Below, in pieces: positions 60,078 through 64,000 of a stretch of DNA of 64,000 nt. Position numbers and translations under genes: made by a program. Origin of the DNA: Bimuria novae-zelandiae CBS 107.79 (Eukaryota > Ascomycota > Dothideomycetes > Pleosporales > Didymosphaeriaceae); the NCBI GenBank assembly GCA_010015655.1, contig ML976665.1, positions 977,149 to 1,041,148 of the forward strand, written 5' to 3'. The notes beneath the pieces were generated by a model. The model ran no database searches. It saw nothing but the letters and a program-made list of their open reading frames with translations, and was not told the DNA's origin. The first letter of the stretch is position 1, and every line of letters begins with the position of its first letter.

Positions 60078-61169
60078 CTACTCAACAATAAGCACAGCAA
60101 TAGTCGCAGCTCCAATCAACCACCCCCAACCACCTCTCTCAACAACCCCTCCAGCACTCTTCCTAACCTCATCTAACAAATTTCCAATACTAGTGGAGTT
60201 TTTACCTCCACTCACGGGCCGGGTCTTGCTGGAGTTTTTACCTCCACTCACGGGCCGGGTTTTGCACTTGCGCTTCTTGCCCCGACCCTTGCAACTGCGC
60301 CTCTTCTGCGTATCCTCACTTCCGGCAACCACCTTCTGGCTGATCCACGGCTCGCCCAGCAACTCCGACGCCGCGGCCGGCGCGGCCTTGTCTGTTGTGT
60401 TGAATAGCAGCCGCATGGTGCCATCACCCGCGTCGATCTCGGGGGGCAGCTCCACGGTGGCGCCGTCGCGGGCAGTGCTAGGGATGAGTTGGTGAGAGAG
60501 GATGGCACCGAGGAGGGTGGCGCCAGAAGCGGAGGTTAGGTTGGTCGTCATGGTGCAGAGGGCCTCGGGGCCGGAGCAGCGGTCGATGTCAAAGAAAAGG
60601 AGAGCGTAGGTACCCCGGAGGCGGTCTGATGTGCCCACGCGAGCTGCGAGGATGGACTCTTTGTTACCTGGTAAGGATTAGTTTAGGATTACGAGAGGGA
60701 TAGGACTAAGGAGAAAATTCCTTAAAAGAGGCGTTTATTAAAAGGGTTCCATGTACAAGATAGAGACTCGTACGTAAGAGGTCCATATGCAAGGGACCAA
60801 TACTCCAAAGCCAAGTAACAAATCCTGGCGCATAACAAACCCATGCACAGAATATCGGTGCGTGGAAGACAGGTGCGGAAGATCTAAGACCATAGGAGAA
60901 AAACGTGCATAAAAGACCAAGGTACATAAAAATAATGCACAGGTCAGGCAGATCAAGGAGAAAAATTCTTGTGGAATAGTCTGAATAGAAATACACATAG
61001 TAAAAACCATCGTAATAGGAGAGAAAGACTTACCCTTAGCTGGGATACCAGGGCCGGTATTGCCGTTAACAGTAAAGAAGTTAACAGTAAGATTATTCAT
61101 AAACGGCTCCATTGCTGCGTGCACCAGACTGGACAGTATCAAGACAGGAAGGGCTATGATAAAGTGCAT
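60078..61169 (-). CDS. Secreted PEBP-like protein with C-terminal membrane/GPI tail
   Basis: Exons 61169-61034 and 60667-60078 join in phase (split Gly codon, branch-like CTAAAC before the acceptor) to 241 residues. An N-terminal signal peptide (MHFIIALPVLILSSLVHA) is clear. The core (LTVNFFTVNG, GTYALLFFDIDRCSG, ILSHQLIPST, ATVELPPEIDAGDGTMRLLF) resembles fungal extracellular phosphatidylethanolamine-binding proteins in order and spacing; this is a weak, by-eye match. It is followed by a very basic Cys-containing stretch (RRSCKGRGKKRKCK), a duplicated 12-residue unit and a hydrophobic C-terminus (GWLIGAATIAVLIVE), which suggests a GPI or membrane anchor. The ligand is unknown. Confidence 0.6.
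60193..60264 (-). repeat. Exact-type 36-bp tandem duplication in the PEBP-like gene
   Basis: GGAGTTTTTACCTCCACTCA and the following GGGCCGGGT occur twice in a row, coding twice for KTRPVSGGKNS. It is in frame and adds 12 residues to the basic linker. Confidence 0.8.
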
Positions 61170-62192
61170 TTTTGTTGGTAAGATAATCGAAAGAAAAAAA
61201 GAACAGGTAGATAATCAATAGACAAGATAAAGAATCAATCCGAATATGCCCTTAAACGGAGAGTGATAGCGCTCCTTTGTAGTTTTTTGCCTATCTCCCT
61301 TAGTATAGTACTGCCGTATTCATCAACGTCAGTATTCTCACTAAAATTCTATAACTGCATAATTCTAAGTCACTAATTAAGATAGCTAATGCCTTAGATA
61401 CGTTAAATATTTATGCAAAGACTTTAAAGTCGCGCTAATGTTTAGTTATATCTAGTTCCTGCCATAGTAATTACACCAGGAAGTCGAGGGCAAGTTTGAT
61501 AAAGAGATAGGTAAGTAAACGCATTAATGTTTCATCTACTATATCCTAAGCCGAATACCGACGCTGCTCCTAGGGATGTTGGGTCATGTTAATAACAGAA
61601 AAGGCTTCTAAGAGTATAGTCTCGGGTCGTTTAGCAGAGGTTTTTTACTTAGTAAGGCGGTTTTAGCGTGTCTTGTTTCAACGTGCATGATGTCTTATGC
61701 AAGTCTTAGCATACGGGGAGATCGTGCGTTCGCGCTACGTAAGAGCTTGTGTTTAGTAATGCAATTAATTGTTTAGTTATTCCCCACCTAACTAATTACA
61801 ACACTAAGAATAAGCTCCTTCCTAACACCTACGCTTACTTTACACTCTAAAGTACAATCTATAATATCATGCCATAATGCTTGGCGATGAAAGAGATAGA
61901 CTATTCGGCCTCGTGTGCACTAGTTTCACGGCACCATAGGAGACGGCCCAAAGTTCACGATAGTACTTGGCTGTTGAAGCTCAATCTGCAATGGGGGGAC
62001 GCAGGTGTGTATAAAGAGTAGAATCGTCGCTACCTATAGGAAAGTATTATAGCATTACAACTGCTTAGCTTCTTTTCTGCATACCTTCGCATGTTATCTT
62101 TTCTATAAGTCTAATCTTCTATCCGACTTCTTCTTTTTTGATCGACTTTCTATTTTTCAAACCTTCTAACACTACTAAAAAGAACATTCAAA
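61170..62192. other. Divergent intergenic region upstream of two secreted-protein genes
   Basis: The PEBP-like gene reads left and the repeat-peptide gene reads right from this 1-kb space. No other gene was seen. Part of it (about 61330-61870) is AT-rich and may be mildly RIP-affected. Confidence 0.45.
62008..62017 (+). promoter_or_regulatory. Candidate TATA box of the repeat-peptide gene
   Basis: TGTATAAAGA lies 176 bp before the ATG, followed by a pyrimidine-rich leader up to 62190; this fits a fungal promoter with a long leader. Confidence 0.4.
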
Positions 62193-62675
62193 ATGCGCGC
62201 CTCTACCGCTGCTGCCATCCTCGCCTTCACGGCTGGCATGACTTTTGCCGCTCCTGTCGCCGATCCCCGTGGCCGTGGCGGACGCATCGCGGGCGCACTC
62301 GAAGGTGCTGCTAATAGCGCCAGAATTGTCTCTAACGGGCTTTTGATTAACGATAGCCTTAACAAGCGCGAGGCTGAGGCTAAGTCTTGTGGCCGTGGCC
62401 GTGGCGGACGCGCTAGGGGCGCACTTGAAGGTGCTGCTAACGCCGCTAGAATTGTCTCTGACAGGCTTCTAATTAACGACAGCCTTAACAAGCGTAAGGC
62501 TGAGGCTGAGCCTCGTGGCCGTGGTTATAGTAGACGCGCTAGGGGCGCACTTAAAGGTACTGCTAACGCCGCTGGAATTGTCTCTGACAGGCTTCTGATT
62601 AACGATAGCCTTAACAAGCGCGAGGCTAAGGCTAAGTCTTGTGGCCATGGCCGTGGGCCGTGGCGGACGCGCTAG
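62193..62675 (+). CDS. KEP-type secreted repeat-peptide precursor (as it stands, 160 residues)
   Basis: The protein opens with a signal peptide (MRASTAAAILAFTAGMTFAA), then Arg/Gly-rich repeats. Each unit ends NDSLN-KR and the next begins EAEA, KAEA or EAKA: a Kex2 cleavage site followed by Ste13-type dipeptides, as in yeast alpha-factor. Released peptides would be about 36-40 residues: a Gly/Arg (often one Cys) head, then a helix-prone GALEGAANAARIVSDRLLIN part. This design is known for fungal KEP proteins (pheromones, dikaritin precursors, Rep1/Ece1-like peptides); the cores here are longer than dikaritin cores. In this window the frame ends early at 62673-62675 because of 7 extra nucleotides. 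No UstY-like (DUF3328) or other maturation gene is visible nearby. Confidence 0.8.
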   Translation: MRASTAAAILAFTAGMTFAAPVADPRGRGGRIAGALEGAANSARIVSNGLLINDSLNKREAEAKSCGRGRGGRARGALEGAANAARIVSDRLLINDSLNKRKAEAEPRGRGYSRRARGALKGTANAAGIVSDRLLINDSLNKREAKAKSCGHGRGPWRTR

Positions 62676-63352
62676 GGGCGCACTTAAAGGTGCTGCTAAC
62701 GCCGCTAGAATTGTCTCTGATGGGCTTTTGATTAACGATAGCCTTAACAAGCGCGAGGCTGAGGCTGAGCCTTGTGGCCGTAGTCGTGGCGAACGCGCTG
62801 GGGGCGCACTTGAAGGTGCTGCTAACGCCGCCAGAATTGTCTCTAATAGGCTTTTAATTAACGACAGCCTTAACAAACGCGAGGCTAAGGCTGAGCCTCG
62901 TGGCCGTGGCTGTGGCGGACGCGCTGGCGGTGCACTCGAAGGTGCTACTAACGCCGCTGGAATTGTCTCTAACGGGCTTCTAATTAACGACAGCCTTAAC
63001 AAGCGCGAGGCTGAGGCTAAGCCTTGTGGCCGTGTCTGTAGCGGACGCGCTGGGGGCGCACTCGAAGGTGCTGCTAATGCCGCCGGAATTGTCTCTAACG
63101 GGCTTCTGATTAACGACAGCCTTAACAAGCGCGAGGCTAAGGCTGAGCCTTGTGGCCGTGTCTGTAGCGGACGCGCTGGGGGCGCACTTGAAGGTGCTGC
63201 TAACGCCGCTAGAATTGTCTCTGATAGGCTTCTAATTAACGATAGCCTTAACAAGCGCGAGGCTAAGGCTGAGCCTCGTGGCCGTGGCCGTGGCGAACGC
63301 GCTGGCGGTGCACTCGAAGGTGCTGCCAACGCCGCTGGAATTGTCTCTAACA
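62240..63352 (+). repeat. Tandem array of nine 126-bp (42-codon) units
   Basis: The KR site recurs near 62365, 62490, 62616, 62749, 62876, 63002, 63128 and 63254, a 126-bp period except for one 133-bp step. The first unit follows the signal peptide directly and the ninth is cut off at about 63349. Differences between units are mostly substitutions. Confidence 0.9.
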
Positions 63353-63459
63353 TGTTGGTTCAGCACTTGGCGCGGTTCGGCAAATGGCGCACCCCAACCA
63401 AATCACGCAGTTTACAACACCTCGTTACTGAGCCATCCACAATAGCTAGAATATTCTAA
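62676..63459 (+). pseudogene. Out-of-frame remainder of the repeat-peptide gene
   Basis: From 62641 the repeat frame continues in another phase with five further units, all keeping KR/EAEA-type sites, until the last unit diverges after IVSN at about 63349. The terminal residues to 63459 are encoded by transposon sequence and have no repeat character. Confidence 0.75.
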
Positions 63460-64000
63460 TAATTCATTCAATTACTATATAAATTGCTGCGAAAAAGATG
63501 TACTACTGGAATTTCGCTGGAAGTTTAATATTGCGGCCACGGCGCGTTGTTGTTGTGGGTGCTGGATCACGCCCTATTTCATCACCCCTATCCCCCCTAC
63601 CCTCAGCAACCACCACACGTTGCTTTTTTTTCTGTTTTGGCGCTGCGGCAGGCTTTGAGACCTTCCTCTTTCCCTTTTGGGAAGTTTGTATAGCCTTTTC
63701 GGAGTTTTCTTTCTCCTGAATCCTCTGTTGTTGCTTAGCCTGTTTCTCCGCCGCGACCCTCTCCTTTTCCTCCCTTTTCTTAACCCTCAACCTTTCTCTC
63801 TCTTTCTTCTCCTGCAGGTTACGTAGCTTAGCTAAGGTTATTTCTGCCTTCTTACGCGCTTTTTCGAGTTCTACTTTCTCTTTCTCCTTATCTACAACGC
63901 TCTTGCGTACTCTAGCCTCCCTCAGCTTCCTCGGGGACCAGAAAACTGCACCACCGTGGTACTCCCTGCGTTGTTGCAGGTCTAGAGGCTTGCTCTTCTT
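63349..64000 (-). mobile_element. Fot1/pogo-type DNA transposon, left end, continuing beyond window
   Basis: The repeat-unit sequence stops inside GTCTCTAAC at a TA dinucleotide, the target of Fot1/pogo elements, and a new sequence starting ACATGTTGGTTCAGCACTTG begins, probably the terminal inverted repeat. The transposase lies inside on the minus strand. The other end is outside the window. Confidence 0.65.
63503..64000 (-). CDS. Fot1/pogo-type transposase, C-terminal part, intact
   Basis: The minus-strand frame is open from base 64000 to the stop at 63503. It begins inside LDLQQRREYHGGAVFWSPRK, then LREARVRKSVVDKEKEK, a long Lys/Glu/Arg/Gln coiled coil, SQKGKRKVSKP and the ending RGRNIKLPAKFQ. 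This is the conserved tail after the DDE domain of pogo/Fot1-class transposases in filamentous ascomycetes. No stop or RIP damage is seen in 166 codons, so the element may be recent or active. The DDE catalytic domain is outside the window. Confidence 0.8.
   Translation of the reverse strand, partial: KKSKPLDLQQRREYHGGAVFWSPRKLREARVRKSVVDKEKEKVELEKARKKAEITLAKLRNLQEKKERERLRVKKREEKERVAAEKQAKQQQRIQEKENSEKAIQTSQKGKRKVSKPAAAPKQKKKQRVVVAEGRGDRGDEIGRDPAPTTTTRRGRNIKLPAKFQ

Follow-up and report, generated by a model that had tools for sequence, protein, structure and literature searches.

Results and Discussion

The 64,000-nucleotide stretch of DNA analysed here (the window), from the soil fungus Bimuria novae-zelandiae CBS 107.79, contains a tandem array that resembles a fungal KEP (Kex2-processed repeat protein) precursor, a protein cut into many small secreted peptides. 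The question is whether this array is a working gene for a set of near-identical peptides, as was originally predicted, or something else.

Architecture of the array

The array is read on the forward strand from an ATG at 62193, which is followed by a signal-like segment. Tandem Repeats Finder (TRF) places a 126-nt repeat at 62267-63352 (8.6 copies, score 1514). Eight sites of the form AACAA[GA]CG[CT], encoding N-KR, are spaced by 126 or 133 nt and each is followed by [EK]A[EK]A, which bears out the predicted KR plus EAEA/EAKA/KAEA borders. The features are collected in Table 1. A signal peptide followed by about nine 42-codon repeats had been expected. The signal-like start and the approximate number of units stand, but the single open frame does not, as the 133-nt unit is frameshifted. 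The array is divided between two frames: the first ends in a stop at 62675, the second stays open between 62641 and 63459. The first frame contains three KR-closed units ahead of the frameshift, and so falls within the repeat definition of a KEP (at least three similar repeats of 8-100 aa between KR, KK, RR or RK sites).

Table 1. Positions of the array, its units and neighbouring features in the window.
Feature	Position	Strand	Remarks
Gene U (BU23DRAFT_596860), 241 aa	60078..61169 (exon 1 61035-61169, exon 2 60078-60668)	-	Both exons match P0002 exactly
Upstream region, 1,023 bp	61170..62192	.	Recurs partly or wholly at other loci (sequence matches)
Putative signal peptide, MRASTAAAILAFTAGMTFA	62193..62249	+	Cut site by eye; identical or nearly so in the six of nine loci with a readable 5' end and in P0001
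Unit 1	62250..62369	+	Starts APVADP-RGRGG (three X-A/X-P dipeptides); KR at end
Unit 2	62370..62495	+	42 codons; KR at end
Unit 3	62496..62621	+	42 codons; KR at end; KAEA
Unit 4	62622..62754	+	133 nt, frameshifted; first-frame stop at 62673-62675
Unit 5	62755..62880	+	
Unit 6	62881..63006	+	
Unit 7	63007..63132	+	
Unit 8	63133..63258	+	
Unit 9	63259..63349	+	Interrupted by the transposon at TA
TA-target DNA transposon with inverted ends, left part	63350..64000	.	Extends beyond the window; inverted ends and flanking TA by eye, probe matches

The gene does not end near 63352, where the originally noted range stops. A TA at 63348-63349 is followed by ACATGTTGG...; by eye, the inverted copy of this sequence ends roughly 2.1 kb downstream, next to a TA. 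There the array picks up again: the rest of unit 9 is followed by two complete units and a final degenerate one. The stretch between the two transposon ends contains an N run. A 168-base transposon probe (from 63353) gave 41 genome matches, with 40 of the 124 candidates scored. Of these matches, 36 begin at the first base of the probe, and five, including that in the window, are 100% identical along the full 168 bases. The element thus looks like a high-copy, recently active transposon that was inserted fairly recently.

Relatives of the array

The original prediction had suggested that the 42-residue unit be searched for relatives with conserved KR/EAEA spacing. Such sequences were found at nine loci in the genome, the window array among them, and in one protein, P0001, all from a single strain. 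The 42-residue query has 26 matches in the genome, and a codon pattern of the KR-EAEA/EAKA type has 27, compared with none for a reversed control. All of them fall in nine KEP-like loci: C10:1039-1043k (the window array), C10:392k, C14, C36, C53, C61, C65, C83 and C107. P0001 is an annotated orphan protein of the same strain, from a contig of 12,635 bases. Searches of the analysed genome assembly did not recover it; the locus counts, nine included, are therefore lower bounds.

The putative signal peptide is common to the six loci in which the 5' end can be read; none was found in the readable DNA of C36, C65 and C107. Several loci have N runs within or beside the array, and the right ends of the duplicated block vary between loci. 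The C83 copy has an uninterrupted 101-residue frame from its ATG, with two units. The C53 match has three stops, one of them in the first unit at a Leu codon, a position that a C>T/G>A change cannot account for. The C61 copy (L019 4000-4700) continues into unrelated coding sequence (HPDTL... repeats, which we take to be TPR-like), as if fused or rearranged. A TAG follows the last full unit in six of the eight loci in which that part is readable, and may be the normal stop rather than decay. No codon of the common unit (e.g. L018 5331-5456) is made a stop by C>T or G>A (0 in simulations). Stops at Gln-type positions are seen past the last full unit at several loci.

Around 5.8 billion proteins were searched by single query and by profile, and P0001 was the only relative found. 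These searches reach proteins of a limited length range that share short exact words with the query, and the profile search scored the 7,980 candidates sharing the most words. No homologue outside strain CBS 107.79 was found in these protein databases, and nothing credible was found in Pfam, NCBIfam or the PDB. Matches to the Pfam families DicB, YmcE and zf-RVT were rejected because they lie below the cut-offs of those families and on the repeat, and a PDB match to Sm D1 (E 0.018) was put down to Arg-Gly composition. Among the titles and abstract openings listed for B. novae-zelandiae, KEPs and repeat-induced point mutation (RIP), none describes the family; the name Bimuria is missing from the main text of two KEP surveys. 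Within the scope of these searches the array is undescribed, as had been claimed. Its KEP-like nature is likewise upheld. The support comes from P0001, from in-frame changes of length and from relatives with identical KR-EAEAEP spacing.

Possible coding constraint

An array of this kind could also be non-coding satellite DNA that is open by chance. Several frames of a GC-rich 126-nt array can be open, and the minus strand here has a 294-aa ORF. Several observations argue against this. The complete KR-to-KR lengths (n = 17, after removal of two intervals, one containing N and the other the transposon) take nine different values, and 16 of the 17 are multiples of 3, the exception being the 133 nt of the window. 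The putative signal peptide is conserved at six loci, and P0001 is an annotated protein. For the signal peptide plus first unit, the mean dN/dS is 0.51 over 15 locus pairs, and 0.71 over the ten pairs without the window, with the stop-bearing C53 copy (L020) included. When L020 is instead left out, the ten remaining pairs give, by hand, a mean dN of 0.033 and dS of 0.109. Divergence in the coding part (0.069) is close to that in the 400 bp upstream (0.077), as the satellite reading would have it; constraint on this region is thus modest at best, and we regard the signal for it as weak. Non-coding satellite DNA with random synonymous and nonsynonymous change had been named among the outcomes that would overturn the prediction; the multiples of 3, the shared signal-like start and the low dN relative to dS oppose it, and we consider a chance-open satellite very unlikely.

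Probable mutational decay of the window copy

We aligned 19 units from six loci and scored the changes against the majority. For the window locus, nine units were scored, including two beyond the transposon. They carry 109 differences, of which 97 are C>T/G>A, 8 are reverse transitions and 4 are transversions. The other five loci (10 units) have 74, divided into 37, 24 and 13, respectively. The majority reference contains the window's own units, which works against detecting an excess of C>T/G>A. By context, the window-locus changes fall at CpG (45), CpA (39), CpC (8) and CpT (5), for which 30, 13, 20 and 18 sites are available per unit. CpA and then CpG are the most changed per available site and together account for 84 of the 97. 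The bias extends to the upstream region of the window locus (12 of 14) and to its signal-plus-first-unit (7 of 7); in each of four other loci 6-9 of 14-15 upstream differences are of this type. The surroundings of the array are AT-rich, with a TpA/ApT ratio of 1.75 and a (CpA+TpG)/(ApC+GpT) ratio of 0.45; the corresponding values for the gene-rich part are 0.68 and 1.19. By the customary thresholds, the indices of the AT-rich DNA are of the RIP type. From 32001 to 59000 there is an AT-rich compartment (around 27-41% GC in 2-kb windows) with RIP-type dinucleotide indices, which adjoins the gene-rich block. Judging from the mutation spectrum, we infer RIP as the cause of the changes in the window copy.

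The variation among units could instead be selected diversity in a working array, with Cys, Lys and Ser variants giving a different active peptide from each unit. Across the eight in-frame units, 19 of the 42 residues are variable or depart from the reference, and diverse cores occur in other fungal KEPs (PMC7329392). The mutation spectrum leads us to reject this reading. The residues described as "sometimes Cys" and the EAKA/KAEA borders do occur in the sequence, but each is a CGT or GAG codon altered by a transition. The in-frame units (frameshifted unit excluded) contain eight Cys codons, seven in the window and one beyond the transposon; each of them reads TGT at a position where CGT is the family codon. 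In the units of the window locus we counted 44 nonsynonymous C>T/G>A changes. The expectation was 63 when L018 served as the reference (0 of 5000 simulations as low) and 51 with the majority reference (P 0.04). As these changes lie below and not above the mutational null, they give no indication of selected diversity; the array is moreover interrupted by a frameshift and a transposon. We consider a diversified working array highly improbable. In view of this deficit, some constraint may have acted on the window copy before or during mutation, or units may have been copied after mutation.

With its frame broken in unit 4, a transposon in unit 9 and RIP-like C>T/G>A changes, the array in the window is probably non-functional. 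In view of these lesions, the release of a near-identical peptide set from this locus is not supported; at most the first three units share a frame with the putative signal peptide.

Layout and predicted processing of P0001

The layout and membership of the family are evident at the sequence level, and the layout of P0001 is probably the working form. KR divides P0001 into five segments, three of which have the common body. The first has APVADP after the likely signal cut, followed by the common body. All four later segments open with EAEAEP-RGR; two carry the common body, one an unrelated body, and the last is a C-terminal variant, so that the bodies are of three kinds. The unrelated body (residues 106-143, KR-bounded) is acidic and contains Tyr under its EAEAEPRGR header. 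It was not found in the analysed genome, and its segment has a net charge of -5, EAEAEP counted in. The common peptide has an Arg-Gly head (net charge of +2 to +4 for two forms).

Kex2 cuts after KR and Ste13 trims X-Ala dipeptides, as in alpha-factor. Searching the genome for such enzymes gave a single P_proprotein (Kex2-type) match and three DPPIV_N matches, of which two are full-length. Trimming of X-A/X-P dipeptides by Ste13 has been described for KEPs (PMC6339444), and the three successive X-A/X-P dipeptides at the start of each P0001 segment agree with it. By analogy, we infer Kex2 cleavage and dipeptidyl trimming of the family precursors. The precursor would enter the secretory pathway, Kex2 would cleave past every KR, and Kex1 would take off the KR. 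A Ste13/DPAP-type peptidase would then strip three dipeptides (EA-EA-EP, or AP-VA-DP after signal cleavage). The predicted products are linear, RG-headed peptides of 32-38 residues, with a Gly/Ala/Leu/Ile-rich body in most. After RIP-like mutation, frameshift and transposon splitting, the window copy would yield the peptides of its first three units at most. Overall, we hold it to be likely that the window feature is a broken copy in a Bimuria-restricted KEP family, the working form of which, typified by P0001, would be processed in this Kex2/Kex1/Ste13-type manner.

Comparison with known systems

The family resembles the KEPs of PMC6339444 and PMC7329392 in its signal-like start, at least three repeats between KR sites, 25-50-aa class and Ste13-type X-A/X-P signature. 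It differs from them in that no relative was found beyond the strain (in the protein databases and survey main texts covered here), that it is multi-copy in transposon-rich DNA, and that its copies are broken, short or gapped. Ascomycete alpha-pheromone precursors share the EA-type spacer after KR; in contrast to these, the family is multi-copy, and its predicted peptides of 32-38 aa lie outside the 9-24-aa class (PMC6339444).

Dikaritins (ustiloxin type) are cyclic RiPPs whose precursors likewise combine a signal with KR repeats, and the genome has 53 matches to UstYa (DUF3328). Within 150 kb of the nine loci there is not one of these matches, and five of the eight contigs involved have no match at all, so a dikaritin-type precursor is unsupported and we rejected it on these positions. 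The common body also has no conserved Tyr; Tyr is present in one P0001 unit and one variant unit of the window. A cyclic dikaritin-type product is, in our estimate, extremely unlikely.

Surface-active or fibril-forming peptides like Rep1 of Ustilago maydis would share the precursor plan, in which Kex2-cut repeats give peptides (PMC8528282), and the P0001 peptides are 32-38 aa. Here the likeness to Rep1 is one of precursor plan. The common tail, calculated for one peptide, has a helical hydrophobic moment of 0.106 (P 0.62 against shuffles), and moments at strand angles give P 0.20-0.99; the tail differs from Rep1 in having no amphipathicity by this measure. We consider a Rep1-like role rather unlikely. 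The suggestion of antimicrobial or surface-active peptides is not supported either, since the tail moment is not above that of shuffles, and the same goes for an amphipathic antimicrobial peptide. The tail had been called helix-prone. AlphaFold2 without an alignment does place helices in three units of P0001, but with very low confidence (mean pLDDT 43), so helicity is at best weakly indicated.

The neighbouring gene U

Gene U, duplicated together with the array, lies head-to-head with it, 1,023 bp away. Its protein is of secreted type, with a signal-type start and a hydrophobic C-terminus. U sequence is found head-to-head within 5 kb of a KEP copy in four of the nine loci (window, C10:392k, C83 and C14), at a distance of 16 kb in C36 and of around 34 kb on C53. 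On C92, U sequence occurs but no KEP match. At C83 another insertion, with 29-bp inverted ends, lies between the gene U remains and the KEP copy (L018 2915-4747). Just two of the matched copies are intact, both on C10 (the second at C10:390k). Comparison of their exons 2 shows 7 differences in 588 bases, every one silent (dN 0, dS 0.048); the encoded protein is identical. Gene U thus looks constrained despite the broken KEP beside it in the window. It has no relative in Pfam or NCBIfam, and none outside this strain in the protein database (exon 2 query). A weak PDB match (E 0.023) was taken as chance. AlphaFold2 without an alignment gave a mean pLDDT of 41.

One could imagine a lineage-specific two-gene cassette, in which a KEP with a fixed KR-EAEAEP-RGR header and swappable bodies of opposite net charge stands head-to-head with U as a secreted carrier, anchor or immunity partner. 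Such a cassette would have spread via transposon-rich DNA, would be pruned by RIP and would serve antagonism between strains or neighbours. We consider this proposal improbable.

Implications

Known KEP-type peptides include pheromones and Rep1 fibrils. In Coprinopsis, knockouts of KEP-type peptides had no axenic phenotype, and it was proposed that they serve interactions with the biotic environment (PMC9769878). By analogy, our best guess is that the peptides of this family interact with the biotic environment; they would be active extracellularly, with other organisms or the hyphal surface as the most likely targets.

The variety within a tandem peptide array can be the result of C-to-T decay, and without paralogues the Cys and Lys variants seen here look like peptide diversity. 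Surveys of KEPs that use gene models of RIP-prone genomes should check for such decay. The present analysis adds an orphan KEP family in which the processing header is fixed and the peptide body is variable.
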